In this document: positions 3,656 to 36,361 of the stretch, piece by piece
Position numbering within the stretch: position 1 is the stretch's first letter
How the letters are laid out: the number at the start of each line of letters is the position of its first letter
Assembly: GCA_937951625.1 (NCBI GenBank)
Contig: CALFBP010000056.1
Coordinates: forward strand, 1 to 45,373
DNA length: 45,373 bases
Direction: 5' to 3'
Origin: an uncultured Thermoguttaceae bacterium
GTDB lineage: Bacteria; Planctomycetota; Planctomycetia; Pirellulales; Thermoguttaceae
Position numbers and translations under genes: made by a program
The notes under the pieces: generated by a model
Told to the model about the DNA's origin: nothing
Seen by the model: the letters and a program-made list of their open reading frames with translations, nothing else
Databases searched by the model: none

Positions 3656-3889
3656 CTATCCGCCGCCAATGGCTGGGAAAACACCAACCTGCTCGCCGCC
3701 CTGGAGTTGGTCGGCAAGTGAGGCCGCTCGGTTGTTGACGAACACGATGCGGGTCTGGTCGCGGGGAATCCCGCAACGATCCAAGACCTCGCCCACGGTC
3801 TCGCCCGGTTCAATCCCTACCTCTCTCGACGCCACGCCGCCTAAATACGAACGGAGGGTTGCGTAGGCTTTGACGCGAACACTGGCCAT
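3656..3889 (-). CDS. MoaD/ThiS-family ubiquitin-like sulfur carrier protein
   Basis: The 77-residue protein has the features of a beta-grasp sulfur carrier: a short N-terminal strand (VRVKAYATLR), a GETVGEVLDRCGI helix segment, a VFVNN turn and a C-terminus ending VFPAIGGG. In this family the terminal Gly-Gly is adenylated and converted to a thiocarboxylate that donates sulfur for molybdopterin, thiamine or other products. The frame stops with TAG directly after the last Gly, as function requires. No MoaE, ThiG or activating enzyme lies next to it, so the pathway cannot be told. It is the first gene of the run leading to pyrF and ndk. No strong ribosome binding site precedes the ATG. Confidence 0.8.
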   Translation of the reverse strand: MASVRVKAYATLRSYLGGVASREVGIEPGETVGEVLDRCGIPRDQTRIVFVNNRAASLADQLQGGEQVGVFPAIGGG

Positions 3890-7161: not shown

Positions 7162-8007
7162 GCTGAACGTTCTGTCTTCCTGCCGCTGTACGAGGCGAAG
7201 ATGCTTCAGGCGTACGACCACCGCGCCGCGAACGTGATTACCGACCGATCCAACTGGATGCGGCAAGGCCAAACTGAGAAGCGGACCCTGGTTGGCTATC
7301 AGAATCCCGAACAGTTGGCCATGCCGAGATTCTGGGTGGAGGCCAACAAAGTCGAAATGCCCGATTGGGGATGCGTGGGCTTCAAGGACATCACCAGTCC
7401 CACGAACCAAAGGACCATGATTGCGGCTTGCGCGCCAAGGGCCGGATTCACGAATCATTTCGTTCTCGTTCGAAGTGAAGCAAAACCTGTTCGGCAACTG
7501 TGTTTGTTGGCCAATTTCAACGCTTTTGCCTATGACTATTGCACTCGTCAGAAAATCGGTGGCGTGACTCTGAACTTCTTCATCGTCGAGCAAATCCCGA
7601 CGCTGCCGCCCGACGCCTACGACAAACGTTGCCCGTGGGACCGCCGCACGACGTTGGAGACGTGGATCAGCCAGCGCGTGCTCAAATTGACTTGCACGGC
7701 CGAAGACATGCTCCCGCTGGCCGAGGCCTGCGACTTCACCGACGGCAGCTTTCGGGCGGAATACGGCGGGCGGCTCCACAAATGGGACGAAGCCGAACGA
7801 GCCGAGCTGATGGCCGAACTCGACGCCGCCTTCTTTCTCCTCTACGGCATCGAACGCGACGACGTGGAGTACATCCTCTCCACCTTCCAAGGCGTCCACG
7901 ACGAAGGCATCGGCTTCCCCGGCGAGCCTAGCGTCGCCCAACGCATCCTGGAGAAGTACGCCGTGTTGTCCCAAACGGCTGGGGGAGTCGACGCGGTTCG
8001 TCTCTAG
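7162..8007 (+). pseudogene. C-terminal fragment of an Eco57I/PglX-like (type IIG or BREX-type) DNA methyltransferase
   Basis: The frame opens right after the kinase stop and has no proper start. It begins mid-domain with SVFLPLYEAKMLQAYDHR, continues with WGCVGFKDITSPTNQRTM, LNFFIVEQIPTLPP and ends with a helical tail (AELDAAFFLLYGIERDDVEY). These are hallmarks of the region that follows the NPPY-containing methylase domain in Eco57I-type restriction-methylases and in PglX-like proteins of phage defence systems. The S-adenosylmethionine and NPPY motifs are missing, so about two thirds of the gene is gone. An ATG at 7201 could start a 268-residue product, but without catalytic motifs. It reads as the surviving 3' end of a defence gene, cut off exactly beside the kinase gene. 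Confidence 0.75.
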
Positions 8008-9892: not shown

Positions 9893-12800
9893 TTATTTGG
9901 GATGCGATTGCCCGGCGAACCGCTCCCTCGAACGGGCCTCGGACCGCCCATTCGACCGGCCGTTGGCCTGGGCTTGACGCGGGGCTGAGCCGTTACCGGG
10001 CGGGGATGAAATAAAGCGGACGTTCTCGGCCCCGAGCAGTTCTTCGACGCGGGCACGCAGTTCCGGGGTCACCTCGACGCGGGGCCGCTGGCACTGGCAC
10101 TTGACTTGCGTGCCATCGGCCAGGCTGACCACGAGTTGCACCTCGCAGGCACCGGGATAGCCGCGGAGGATTTCGTAGAGCCGTTCCAAATGCTCGATGC
10201 CGTGAATCTTTTCGTGAATCCGCAGCACGACAGACTTCGTGCGTCGGGAAGCCAATTCTTCCAAGGGAATCAATTCGTTGACAATCAGGTTGGCCTCGTC
10301 CCCGCCACGTTTGTCGATGACGCCGACGACCGCCAGGACAGCGTCGGCCTGGACCAGTTCGCCGAACCGCTGGAACGGTTCGGGCCAAAGGATGCAGCGG
10401 ATCGTACCCTCGGCGTCCTCCAAGTCGAACATCGCGTACCGGGTGGGGCTTCCCGGCCGGGGGTTTTTGGTGTGGGCGAACTTGATCGCGGAGATCATCC
10501 CGCCGAGCACCACCTCGGCGCGATGGGGCAGCTTGGCCGCCTGGAGCGTGCTGTGCGAGCAGAAGGCGGCCAGCGTCGCCTGGTGTTCGGCCAGCGGATG
10601 GCTGGAGCGATAGAAGCCCAGCACTTCTTTCTCCTTGGCGAGCTTTTCTCGTGGTTCCCAATCGGGGATGTCAGGCAGGCCGGCAACGGCGGACGATGCG
10701 GAAGGCTCTTCCTCTTCGTCGAACAAGGCCAATTGGCCGCAGCGGCGGTCGGCTGCTGCGGCGGCCCCGGCCTGCAACGCGCGGTCGATCCCCTGGAACA
10801 GTCGGGCACGATTGGTGGCGATGCTGTCGAAGGCCCCGGCCTTGACCAGCGATTCGATCGCGGTGCGGTTCACGTCGCCGCTGTCCAGACGTTCGCAGAA
10901 GTCGAAGAGGCTGCGGAACGGGCCGTGGGCCTGGCGGTTGGCCACGATCGCCTCGGCCGCTCCGATGCCGCAGCCCTTGATCGCCCCCAGCCCGAAAAAG
11001 ATCTTGCCCTCCGAGACGGTGAAATCGGCGCCCGAGCGATTCACGTCCGGAGGAACGACTTCGATCCCCATGCGCTGGCAGTCTTCGAGGTGTTCGACCA
11101 GGGAGTCCTTGCGGGTAAAGTTGCGGCCCGGCATGTCGCTGGACAATAGCGCCGCCATGAACTCGACCGGCCAATGGGCCTTGAGATATGCCGTCATATA
11201 AGCGATCAGGGCATAGGCGGTCGAGTGGCTCTTGTTGAAGCCGTAGCCGGCGAATTTTTCGATCAAGCCAAACAGTTCCTCGGCGGTCTTTTTGGGCAGT
11301 CCTTGGGCCTGGGCCCCTTCGATGAATTCTTCGCGGAACTTGGCGATGATCGGCAATTTCTTTTTGCTGATGGCCTTAATGCAGGTGTAGGCGTTGGCCA
11401 GCTTGATCCCGCCCAGCCGATTGAGGATTCGCATCACCTGTTCCTGGTAGACCATCACGCCATGGGTCTCTTCCAGGATTTCCTTCATCACCGGGTGGGG
11501 GTACTCCGCCTTTTTCCGCCCGTGCTTCACTTGGATGTAGTCGTCGACCATGCCGCCCTCCAAGGGGCCTGGGCGGTAGAGGGCGTTGGTGGCGATGATG
11601 TCGCGGAAATGGTCGGGCTTCATTCGCTGCAACAGGTCGCGGATGCCGCCGCTTTCGAGCTGGAAGACCCCTTTGGTCTCGCCGTGGCAGAGCAGGGCGA
11701 AGGTTTTGGGGTCGTCCAGCGGGAAATTGTATGGATCGATCCGCTGGCCGGTCGTCTGCTCGATGAGATCGACGGTCTTGGAGAGGATGGTCAGGTTGCG
11801 GAGTCCGAGGAAGTCCATCTTCAGCAGGCCTGCCCGCTCGACGTCGGCCATGGCCCATTGGGTGATGATTTCCTCCTTGCCGGTTACCCGCTGCAAAGGC
11901 AGATATTCCACCAGCGGCCGGTCGGCGATGACCACGGCGGCGGCGTGCGTGCCCACGTTCCGCGCCAGGCCCTCGACTTGCCGGGCGAGGTCCAGCAGTT
12001 CGCGGACCTCGGGATCGGAGTCGTAGGCCTTCTTCAGGTCTTCGCTGATTTGCAAGGCTTTTTCCAGGGTGATCCCCACTGGCTCGGGCACGAGCGACAC
12101 CACGGCGTTGACGCGCGGCAAGGGCAGGCCCAACGCGCGGCCCACATCACGGATGGCCGCGCGAGCCGCCAACGTGCCGAACGTGCCAATCTGCGCCACG
12201 TTCTCCGTGCCGTATTTCTCCTTGACATACTGGATCACCTCGGCGCGGCGCTGCTGGCAGAAGTCGATGTCGATGTCGGGGGCCTCGCGGCGGTTCTCGT
12301 CCAAAAACCGCTCGAAGAGCAGATCGTACTTCAGCGGGCAGACGTGGCTCAGATACAAGGCATAGGCCACCAAGGACCCCACGCCCGAGCCCCGGGCCGT
12401 GGCCGGAATCCCGTGTTCCCGGGCGAAACGGACAAAGTCCCAAACGATCAAAAAGTAATTGGCAAAGCCCAGCTTGTTGATCACATCCAACTCGCGCTCG
12501 AGGCGATCCATCACCTCTGCCGACAGTTCCCCATCGCGGCAGCGTTGGGGATCATTCCGGTACCGCTCGCGCAGGCCCTGCAAGCACAATTCCCGCAAGA
12601 ACTGCTCGGAAGAAACGCCGTCGGGCGGGGTGAAGACAGGGAAATGCCGCACGCCGATCTCCAATTCCAACTCCACGCGGTCGGCGATTTCCTGGCTGCG
12701 GCGCACGGCGTCTTCGTGGCCGGTGAACACCTGGTACATCTGTTCTGGGCTGCGGAGGTAATACTCTTTCGAGCCCATCCGCATCCGCTTCGTATCGGAG

Positions 12801-13501
12801 CGGAATTTGCCGGTGTTCACGCAGATGAGAATATCTTGGGCGTCGGCGTCGGCGGCGTCGACATAATGCACGTCGCTGGTGGCGACCAGGGGGATGCCGG
12901 TGCGACGAGCGACTTCGACCGCCCCGCGCATCGCCGTGCGCTGCATTTCCGTGCCGTTGTCTTGAATCTCGATGTAGTAGCGGTCGCCGAAAACGTCTCG
13001 ATACCACTCCACGATGCGCAGGGCCTTCGTGAAGTCAGGATCGGAACCCTCCAGGAGCGTTCGATTCAATTCGCTGGAAGCGCATCCACTCAGGCAGATC
13101 AGCCCCTCGCTATGCTCGGCCAAAAGCTGCTTGTCGATTCGGGGGCGGAAGTAGAAGCCTTCGAGAAATGCCGCCGTGGCCAGTTTCAGGAGATTGCGGT
13201 ATCCGATCTTGTTGTACGCCAGCAGCGTCAGATGGGAGCTGGCCTCCTTCATGCTGGCGGCTTCCTTGTGGAAGCGGCTGCCCGGCGCCACGTAGGCCTC
13301 GTAGCCGATGATCGGCTTGATGCCTGCCGCCTAGGCCTTCTGGTAGAACTCCAGCGCGCCGTAGAGATTGCCGTGATCCGTCAGCGCCAGGGCATTCATG
13401 CCCAGCGTCTTGACCCGATCGACCAACCGGTCAATCGAGCTGGCGCCGTCCAACAAACTGTAATGACTGTGGCAATGCAGATGAACAAAAGGAAGACTCA
13501 T
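9893..13501 (-). CDS. dnaE: DNA polymerase III alpha subunit DnaE, interrupted by an in-frame TAG at codon 57
   Basis: This gene encodes the replicative polymerase subunit. From the ATG at 13501 (GAAGGAG, 8-base spacer) the frame has 1202 codons before the final stop. It starts with the PHP domain motif [13 protein letters not shown]. The polymerase core includes [12 protein letters not shown] and PDIDIDF, whose Asp411 and Asp413 match the catalytic aspartates of E. coli DnaE. The end has an OB fold ([12 protein letters not shown]) and a basic tail. Codon 57 is TAG (13331-13333) in the run YQKA[17 protein letters not shown], where related proteins have Lys (AAG). As written, only a 56-residue peptide is made; reinitiation at a GTG at 13291 would lose the start of the PHP domain. 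All other parts look intact. Sequencing error, recent mutation or a second dnaE elsewhere are the main explanations. Confidence 0.93.
13331..13333 (-). other. Premature amber codon inside dnaE
   Basis: On the minus strand these bases read TAG, in frame between Ala56 and Ala58 of DnaE. One base change (AAG to TAG) explains it; no frameshift is needed because the correct frame resumes at the next codon. TAG is a normal stop in this genome, since the MoaD/ThiS-like gene (stop 3656-3658) and the DUF1598 gene end with it. Confidence 0.9.
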
Positions 13502-32935: not shown

Positions 32936-35900
32936 TCAGGGTTTCTTTTCCGCCGCCTCGATCATCTGCCGGATCGAGAAGCGACTTCGCACGTATTCAT
33001 CGTAGTTTAACAGCAATTCCATCACGGCGTCGAGTTGCTCAACGCTGGAGCCAGGGTAGATGTCCTGTCCGAGCTGTTGATCCGCCGGAAAGTTCACCGG
33101 CATCGCCGTATAAGGCAGCACCGACTTGGGGCTGGCCAGCCAACGGCGGAGATAATCGGGCCGGATTCGCGCGGCCACGTCTTGCAGGTTCGGCGCCAGC
33201 GTCGTCCACACTTCTCCGCCAGGACTGAAGTCGCCGATCAAATGGCACTTCGCACAGTACGTCGTCCGATCCAAGATCAGGCGCCACGCGCGATCCAGGC
33301 GTTCGGCCCGTGGCACGTCGCCGGATGCCTGATACGTCTTGCCGACCCGACTCGATCCGCTGTACGGAAACTCCACACCGGCCGCCGCAGCGAAGGCATC
33401 GACGAGTTTTCGGGCCTCGTCGGGGGCGAGAGTAAACTTGGGCATGCGGAGCATCGAGGCCGGGCGGATGACCTTGGGATCGAGCAAGTAGCCGTAGAGC
33501 CAAGCCGGCTGCACGATGCGGCCTTCATGCACAAGCGGAGGCGGGACCCAGCCCCAGGCCTCGCTGCCCACGGCGGTCGCGCCGGCGGCTTTCGCCTCGG
33601 CCAAGGCCACAGGGTACAGCAGCCGGGCGAAGTCGCCTCCCCGGGGCGGCCGCTGGGCAACGATCTGCTTCGGCGAGACAGGCACCCCCGCCCCACCCAC
33701 TGGCCAAACTTTTCCGGCGATGACCGCAGGCTCCCAAAGGCTGAAAACGTACTGCGGGTTGCCGTCGTCGTCTTCGGTTTCCTCCAGCTCCCCCTGCGCG
33801 TCGACTTGGGGCATCCCCACCAACTCCGCACGCGCTAGGCCCCGACGATCCACGCGCAGCGATGCCGTCCGCTGCCGCTCGTCGATCTGCGGCAGCACGA
33901 AATCATGTTCGGCCATCGGCGGCGGAGCTGGGAACTGGTTCGGGTCGTATTCGATGGTCCACCGCTGTAGCTCCAAGGTGTGGCACTGGGCGCAACCGTA
34001 TTGATCCAGAACCTTGCGGCCCTGAACGATTGCTCGGGTCGGGCCAGTGGGTTGGAAAACATAGGGGGGATCGGGCGACTCGGCCACCAAACCCAGCACG
34101 AATGTGAGGATCGCCTCGCGCTGGGCATCGGTCAGCGAAAATCGCCCCATCAGGAGGTGTTCGTTGTACGGTTTCTCGGACGCCTTGCGGAAATCGAAGC
34201 TTCGCGGGGCGCGGAGCTTCTGCCAGAGGAAACCCTCGCGCCGCCCCCCTCGGATCGCCTCTCGGTAAAACCCGTCGTCCTCTTCTTTCTCCGCAATCCT
34301 GCTCTGTTGCTGATCGAGGAACACGTCGACCTGTTCGAAGGCCAATTGCGAGGGTTGTTTACGTCCCCAGTCGGACAAGGCTGGTCCGATGGCCACCGCG
34401 TCTTCCATGCCCGGGATGTCGTGACACCCAAAGCAGCCGCGCTTGCGGATGCTCCGCCGACCAACGTAACGGAGCTTTTTCGTAAGTCGCTCCTCAGGCG
34501 ACATGGGGCCGAGCAACTCCGCCGTGTCGGCCGGGAGGTCCGCCGCCATCGCCGCCGGAATGCCCTGCTGGAGATATTCCGCCGCTGCTTCCGACGAAAA
34601 TGTCTTCGTCAAAAACATCATGGCCAGCTCGTCCAAGTCGGACTCGACCAGCGGCGGCAGGACCGAAGGCCCGTCGTCCTTCGACGCCAACAGGTAGGCC
34701 GCGATGTCGGCCGCCGGATCCGCAGCCTGTACCGGCAACGCCCCGTTTGGCGACTTTGGCCCCACCGGCCGAGCGCCCACAAAACTCGACATCTCCAGAA
34801 GAGGGCTGGGCATCAACGTCCGCGGCGCGTGCCGCGAGGGATCGCGAATCCAACTGGTCAGCCACGCCATGGCCTTCGGTCCCCGGAGCATCGACCCCAG
34901 CCGCGACAAGTCTGGGCCGAGTATTGCTTGCGCCTCAGGAAAGTCGGAGTGTCGGTGACACGCCAGGCAGCCTTGTGTCTGAAACCACCGCTTGCCGCGC
35001 TCCACCGACACTTCTGTATCGGGCCTCTCCGCCACCGCGATCGGCCTGCTGGCCGCCAGCAGATATTCGGCCATCGCCAAGGTCTCGACCGACTCGAAAC
35101 GCCGCACGGTTTCCAGGGCCGACCCCTCCACGTGCTCGTGCATCCCGAACAATCGCGGCATGCGCGTCGTGGGACGAAGACTCTCGGGATTGCTGATCCA
35201 GGCGACCATCGTGGGCTTGTCGAGCCGCTCGGCCACGTCACGGAGACTTGGCCCCACCTTGCGCAGCGTGCCAGGCTGAGAATGCTCCGCCGCTAGAATC
35301 CCGATTAAGGCCCGCGACGAAACGCTTATCCGCGGAGATCCACGGAGGATTCCCACAAGTTGCCGTCGGGCGGCGTGGTCATCAGGCCGGGCAGCCACGT
35401 GCTCCGCAAGACGCCGCGTAGTTGGGTCGAGCTGCGGATCGGCCAATACCCCCAAGGCAGCCTCGTGATAATTGGGTTCCAAACGGAGGTCCGGGCCGAT
35501 GCGTCGAGCGGAATCGTCCCAACCGTTCACCTCATGGCACCCAAAGCACCCCAGTTGCCGTACCAAATGGTAGCCTGCCAAAAGCTTCGGCGCTGGTGGT
35601 TCGGGAAATCGGGCATTTGGCTCCAGATCGCTTACCTCGTGGTGGCACTTCAGGCAATTGCTCTGTAAAAATCGCCTCGGCCGCATGGGAAAATCCCAGT
35701 CGTGGTTCCAGAACCACCCGTGCAGCCGACGCCATGCGGCCCGTTGTCGAGGGTCGTTGGGCGTGTGCGAGGCGAATCGAAATTCGGTCGCACTGCCTTG
35801 CCCATCGTGGCAAATCGTGCAACCGAACTCGTTCGATGGATGAGGGCTCCGCGGCCCGCAGAATAAATCCAGCCGCGGGTGTGGCCGGTAGGGCTGCGGC

Positions 35901-36361
35901 AGAGGCCGAGCGACTTCCTCCGGCCAAGCCTTGACGATTCCCTGATGGCAAGTGACGCAGCGGTCGAAACGCGGTGCCCGGCAAAAATTGTAGTCGATGG
36001 GGAGATTGGGCAGATAAATCTGTTCGATCGCCAAGGGCCTGCCCAAGGCGTCGATAAACGGCAGGCCGAGGATCCAGCGGGTGAACGCTGAAGGCGACGT
36101 GGAGCTCGCGTGTTCCGCAGCGGGCGGGAGTTCCGCGCCAATGTTGCCCTCCGCCCCATCGCTTGGCCTCTCCAACGCCCTGACCGCCTTGTTCGCCTCG
36201 GGTTCGATCTGCTCGCGGAAAATCCGCTGGTAGCGCTTCCACTCTCGGCGGTGATCCACGGCTAGCATCCAGAGCGTGGCCGCCAGCATGGCCAGCGACG
36301 CGACTGCGAAGATCACGTGCAACCGTCGGATGTTATAAAAAGGCTCGGTCGAGGTCCGCAT
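32936..36361 (-). CDS. Membrane-anchored octahaem cytochrome c, putative cytochrome f/c1 replacement
   Basis: This 1141-residue protein has an N-terminal membrane anchor (about 13-35) and eight CxxCH haem sites: Cys135-His139, 181-185, 236-240, 272-276, 465-469, 643-647, 790-794 and 1036-1040. The first four lie close together; the others are spread over separate cytochrome-like domains, several with MP-type distal methionine segments (for example TRMPRLFG, LRMPKFTL). It follows the subunit IV-like gene after 40 bases, in an operon that otherwise lacks cytochrome f or c1. It is therefore the likely electron acceptor from the Rieske protein. Fusion by repeated duplication of cytochrome c modules is plausible. 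No ribosome binding site is evident. I know of multihaem subunits in bc complexes of anammox planctomycetes, but not of this exact form. Confidence 0.88.
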   Translation of the reverse strand: MRTSTEPFYNIRRLHVIFAVASLAMLAATLWMLAVDHRREWKRYQRIFREQIEPEANKAVRALERPSDGAEGNIGAELPPAAEHASSTSPSAFTRWILGLPFIDALGRPLAIEQIYLPNLPIDYNFCRAPRFDRCVTCHQGIVKAWPEEVARPLPQPYRPHPRLDLFCGPRSPHPSNEFGCTICHDGQGSATEFRFASHTPNDPRQRAAWRRLHGWFWNHDWDFPMRPRRFLQSNCLKCHHEVSDLEPNARFPEPPAPKLLAGYHLVRQLGCFGCHEVNGWDDSARRIGPDLRLEPNYHEAALGVLADPQLDPTTRRLAEHVAARPDDHAARRQLVGILRGSPRISVSSRALIGILAAEHSQPGTLRKVGPSLRDVAERLDKPTMVAWISNPESLRPTTRMPRLFGMHEHVEGSALETVRRFESVETLAMAEYLLAASRPIAVAERPDTEVSVERGKRWFQTQGCLACHRHSDFPEAQAILGPDLSRLGSMLRGPKAMAWLTSWIRDPSRHAPRTLMPSPLLEMSSFVGARPVGPKSPNGALPVQAADPAADIAAYLLASKDDGPSVLPPLVESDLDELAMMFLTKTFSSEAAAEYLQQGIPAAMAADLPADTAELLGPMSPEERLTKKLRYVGRRSIRKRGCFGCHDIPGMEDAVAIGPALSDWGRKQPSQLAFEQVDVFLDQQQSRIAEKEEDDGFYREAIRGGRREGFLWQKLRAPRSFDFRKASEKPYNEHLLMGRFSLTDAQREAILTFVLGLVAESPDPPYVFQPTGPTRAIVQGRKVLDQYGCAQCHTLELQRWTIEYDPNQFPAPPPMAEHDFVLPQIDERQRTASLRVDRRGLARAELVGMPQVDAQGELEETEDDDGNPQYVFSLWEPAVIAGKVWPVGGAGVPVSPKQIVAQRPPRGGDFARLLYPVALAEAKAAGATAVGSEAWGWVPPPLVHEGRIVQPAWLYGYLLDPKVIRPASMLRMPKFTLAPDEARKLVDAFAAAAGVEFPYSGSSRVGKTYQASGDVPRAERLDRAWRLILDRTTYCAKCHLIGDFSPGGEVWTTLAPNLQDVAARIRPDYLRRWLASPKSVLPYTAMPVNFPADQQLGQDIYPGSSVEQLDAVMELLLNYDEYVRSRFSIRQMIEAAEKKP

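Follow-up and report, generated by a model that had tools for sequence, protein, structure and literature searches.

Does a bacterium live with a stop codon inside the first domain of its replicase gene, or is the stop a fault of the draft sequence in which it is read? This question is raised by dnaE in the window, the whole stretch of 45,373 nt that we analysed (G000:C56:1-45373, G000 being the draft genome of an uncultured Thermoguttaceae bacterium and C56 the contig). The gene and its parts are as follows:

9893..13501, minus strand: dnaE, DNA polymerase III alpha subunit, 1203 codons if the terminal TAA is counted, with one interruption (translation, NCBIfam, Pfam)
13501, minus strand: position at which the ATG start of dnaE begins (translation)
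13334..13501, minus strand: first 56 codons of dnaE, which encode the N-terminal portion of PHP, including the HLH motif, Asp18 and His43 (PF02811, 5lew alignment)
13331..13333, minus strand: in-frame TAG, codon 57 of dnaE (translation, genome search, alignment of loci)
9896..13330, minus strand: 1145 open codons past the TAG, with the rest of PHP, polymerase, finger, HHH and OB fold (Pfam)
9893-9895, minus strand: terminal TAA of dnaE (translation)

Translation from 13501 to 9893 on the minus strand gave the TAG at codon 57 as the sole stop among the 1202 codons that precede the TAA, in agreement with the earlier note, which had described dnaE as intact apart from this codon at 13331-13333. 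A good Shine-Dalgarno sequence (AAGGAG, judged by eye) lies 8 nt ahead of the ATG. The first 56 residues matched positions 1-50 of the PHP family PF02811 (E 1.3e-19), and past the TAG the PHP match resumed at position 53 (53-163), followed by polymerase alpha, finger, HHH and OB matches in Pfam, indicating that one domain is split by the stop, with no frameshift. The part past the TAG scored by itself 1210.8 bits against the NCBIfam model NF004226 (cut-off 1002), which makes it a member of the DnaE-type polymerase III alpha subunits; the further claim that conserved sequence goes on in the same frame beyond the stop was thus borne out. The order PHP, polymerase, finger, HHH and OB fold is that of the DnaE type (NF004226/PRK05673; structures 5lew and 2hpi), but unlike that type, which has a single uninterrupted reading frame, the gene here has one TAG inside the PHP domain. 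The domains and the NF004226 score together indicate a full DnaE carrying one nonsense codon.

All nine PHP metal ligands appear to be present, as in the DnaE type. Five of them, His7 and His9 of the HLH motif, His43, Cys140 and His212, are residues that we take to be ligands by the PHP motif. The other four, Asp18, Glu68, His90 and Asp210, were mapped through alignments to solved chains from mycobacterial DnaE1, for which PMC5636811 names Asp23, Glu73, His107 and Asp226. Asp18, His43 and Glu68 were identical in 29 of 29 relatives, and the HLH motif was found in every aligned row. The mean identity to these relatives was 84.1% for residues 4-56, while the relatives had 81.6% among themselves (range 76.2-87.2); for residues 58-150 it was 74.8%, with 71.1% among the relatives (range 65.0-74.3). 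Both sides of the stop are therefore conserved as in the relatives, with no sign of decay.

The stop was found in this genome only. The family search covered 119 genomes including the source genome, of which 113 matched and 6 did not; 112 of the 118 relatives were thus matched, and four of these (G013, G016, G055 and G082) were left out, as their match lay outside codon 57 or was to distant paralogues only. None of the 108 same-family relatives covering codon 57 had a stop there (counted from the rows of the family search), and a wider search of 147 genomes (142 matched, the source included) gave no other stop among the matches listed. When the four copies of the source genome's own place were excluded, codon 57 was a sense codon in all 109 other dnaE loci, which were drawn from two collections, so that a species may occur twice. 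The residue was Lys in 63 loci, Arg in 15 and Gln in 7, and the remaining 24 carried Thr (5), Leu (5), Val (4), Ala (2), Met (2), Asn (2), and Cys, Phe, Ile or Ser (1 each). The statement that the family has Lys (AAG) here therefore holds for the commonest state and is too strong for so variable a site. Forty of the loci have a codon one base from TAG (32 AAG, 6 CAG, 1 TTG and 1 TCG). G046, among the three nearest relatives by identity, has CAG, suggesting that the TAG may have come from a C-to-T transition and not from an A-to-T change. In a tree of residues 1-300 (34 rows), the source sequence fell in a group of 12 rows with weak support (57/92), inside which its own neighbours were not resolved, so that Lys-to-stop and Gln-to-stop are not told apart.

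We then considered the draft genome itself, which has 4,589,180 bases (4.59 Mb) in 105 contigs and is 97.89% complete and 2.24% contaminated; the contig number and completeness figures suggest a metagenome assembly. Its nearest relatives belong to other genera of the same family, with at most 83% identity over the first 150 residues among the matches listed. Among the best 80 of 583 matches in named genomes, the closest were Planctomycetota, with Pirellulales on top and other phyla lower, and no near copy of the source genome was found, the relatives having at most 68% identity in this search, which may omit records lying very close to the window. Two other frames of the window were observed in passing. 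A 268-residue ORF at 7201-8007 (plus strand) matched no Pfam family at E up to 0.01; by eye it resembles the C-terminal end of a large protein of restriction-modification type, and it may be a gene remnant. A 1141-residue protein at 32936-36361 (minus strand) had whole-protein matches to several cytochrome c families and is, judged by these matches, likely a multi-haem protein.

How often conserved genes of this genome are interrupted was read from a sample of 845,373 bases, or 18% of the genome, made up of the window and 800,000 further bases, by comparison with genes taken from an 800 kb portion of the relative G024. With a threshold of 45% identity, all matching stretches counted and paralogues included, 44 reference genes gave 19,725 alignment columns and three stops. 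The first is the dnaE TAG, the second falls in the penultimate column of a match on contig C2, and the third, on C53, lies 31 columns short of the end of a match in which only 6 columns agree downstream of the stop. The dnaE TAG alone of the three falls within a well-conserved stretch. With the best match of each of 70 genes at 35% identity or more (28,340 columns), two further stops appeared, both in one 39% match to a G024 protein (G000:C18:35991-36605), which may be a pseudogene or a chance alignment of paralogues. The reverse comparison covered 40 genes and found two stops in G024, which both fall in the early part of a single alignment. The dnaE TAG is thus the one clear mid-gene stop among the conserved genes of the sample, and the assembly is not visibly error-rich.

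TAG is an ordinary stop in this genome. In the same sample, 544 non-overlapping ORFs of at least 150 residues, counted mechanically so that some are not genes, ended in TGA (297), TAG (133) or TAA (114); TAG is therefore neither absent nor rare as a terminator, as it would be in a recoded genome. Among the 70 reference genes (best match of at least 35% identity over at least half the length), 12 matched genes had TAG as the next stop; 8 of them ended no more than 15 codons away from the reference end, the other 4 farther off. The earlier note had pointed to a sulfur carrier as a gene normally ended by TAG, and the ThiS-like (ThiS-family) gene at 3656-3889 on the minus strand indeed ends in Gly-Gly-Gly followed by TAG. 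Release factor 1, the loss of which would mark a recoded genome, is present (G000:C19:16176-17213, 466.2 bits, cut-off 423.25).

A search with RF00005 found 42 tRNAs in the draft genome. None of the 42 has the CUA anticodon that a recoded genome would need, in a set that is incomplete: tRNA-Asn is absent from it, so the draft is short of one or more indispensable tRNA genes. A looser threshold added only two weak matches under the family cut-off, and ARAGORN on the 845 kb found 12 tRNAs, the same as the covariance model in that stretch. The best match to PylS (pyrrolysine) in the draft genome had 24.2 bits, under the cut-off of 178.15; PylS matches also occurred in 13 of 14 control genomes, one of them above the cut-off. 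Two tRNA-Leu (GAG) genes of equal score lie at the starts of two contigs (G000:C38:7-90 and G000:C54:52-135), which suggests that the two contigs overlap in the assembly or that a contig end is duplicated.

The replicase gene and its activity are essential. A gene of the polymerase III alpha kind is present in all of about 2000 bacterial genomes, according to PMC3919608. The first 150 residues of the present gene matched a single place in the whole draft genome, marked as carrying one TAG. The 1145-residue protein past the TAG, searched at E up to 0.001 for a second dnaE, DnaE2 or PolC in the whole draft genome, returned this gene only, and PF07733 at E up to 10 likewise gave one place for a polymerase III alpha subunit, the same gene; in control genomes this model found matches in 12 of 14, B. 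subtilis included. The 1145-residue protein also scores more than 150 bits against PolC models, and the N-terminal query reached apparent second, distant DnaE genes in several relatives, among the matches listed, indicating that a second copy should show if it lay within the assembled 97.89%. The proposal that another dnaE copy lets the cell tolerate the mutation is weakened by these searches, which found no second dnaE or polC.

Taken together, these results are best explained by a single wrong or mixed-strain base in the draft consensus, so that the base call rather than the organism is probably at fault; in living cells, position 57 of dnaE would then be a sense codon and the DnaE made would be an ordinary one. 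This explanation is suggested by a stop that occurs in one draft genome alone, within an undecayed replicase gene found once, with no suppressor or spare copy found, and by the one base that separates TAG, a normal stop here, from codons of relatives at the site. Against it, codon 57 lies well inside contig C56, 13.3 kb from its start and 32 kb or more from its end, hence not at a contig edge, and C-to-T changes are among the commonest natural mutations. The few mid-gene stops in the sample also count mildly against a consensus error.

That the nonsense mutation is real and very recent, and present in some or all cells of the sampled population, is possible, though on balance unlikely; the cells bearing it would survive for a time by low-level misreading of amber or would be outnumbered by intact ones. 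The rest of dnaE is undecayed, as expected if the mutation is young, and the site tolerates so many residues that the one inserted by a misreading tRNA would probably fit. That replicase activity is essential, as is generally known, and that no second copy was found in a draft of this completeness both speak against a mutation of this kind. Belinky et al. 2021 (PMC7918605) have argued that functional bacterial genes with in-frame stops are widespread, and their cases include one Paenibacillus family in which TAG and CAG alternate. The present case is like theirs in having a lone in-frame TAG, a gene without other decay and CAG among the alternatives at the site. That study counted only stops common to at least two genomes, to exclude sequencing errors, whereas the stop here is private to one draft genome and lies in a replicase gene found once. 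The same stop in a second genome, by which conserved readthrough is recognised there, was seen in none of the 108 relatives and none of the 109 other loci. Among the titles listed by a literature search, none concerned a stop of this kind in dnaE, and we make no claim that such a case is unpublished. Sequence alone does not separate a consensus error from a recent mutation. The earlier note had listed error, fresh mutation, suppression and reinitiation; the list was right, and after our tests an error or a very recent mutation remains.

Insertion of an amino acid at the TAG by a suppressor tRNA or another readthrough system appears very unlikely. As tRNA-Asn is missing from the 42 tRNAs, a suppressor gene could be missing from the assembly too, yet no CUA anticodon occurs in this incomplete set, and the looser threshold, ARAGORN and the PylS search add no support, which weakens suppression as an option.

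Translation might also start again past the stop, at one of two codons:

13289..13291, minus strand: GTG (Val71), the first possible restart past the TAG, 14 codons on, with no clear Shine-Dalgarno sequence by eye; the ORF runs from 13291
13250..13252, minus strand: ATG (Met84), the first ATG past the TAG, 27 codons on, with a weak AAGGA about 10 nt upstream by eye

A restart at Val71 or Met84 would give a DnaE without a working PHP domain, a natural proofreading mutant, and we regard it as slightly less probable still. The two codons and the weak AAGGA make it conceivable, and because all nine ligands appear to be present in the gene, their loss would have a clear effect: the product would be without the first five, four of which precede the TAG while Glu68 precedes Val71. 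The E. coli PHP domain has no exonuclease activity and is reported to stabilise the polymerase (PMC5636811), and by analogy loss of the PHP core would likely break folding here. Moreover, a long-used restart should let residues 1-56 drift, but residues 4-56 show no drift, which weakens long-standing reinitiation past the start of PHP, and many relatives that lack the stop have Met84 too, arguing against a special adaptation.

Genome-wide reassignment of TAG, for which the stop itself is the only argument, is so improbable that we rejected it, in line with the earlier view: although 4 of the 12 TAG-ended reference-matched genes do not stop near the reference end, the other 8 do, TAG closes 133 of 544 ORFs, RF1 is present and no CUA tRNA was found among the 42.

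The TAG thus most probably reflects a wrong base call or a private mutation of very recent origin, and not a new mechanism. As it stands, the case is a warning that one base of a draft genome can make an essential gene seem broken. It is doubtful that the sole replicase gene found is truly interrupted by amber and that the organism lives on inefficient readthrough, suppression or a PHP-less restart, with the level or fidelity of its replicase lowered in the wild. If the stop were real and fixed, an essential replicase found in single copy could function by readthrough of a stop codon or with its PHP core missing, which would bear on the amount of replicase that a cell requires and on the origin of natural mutators.
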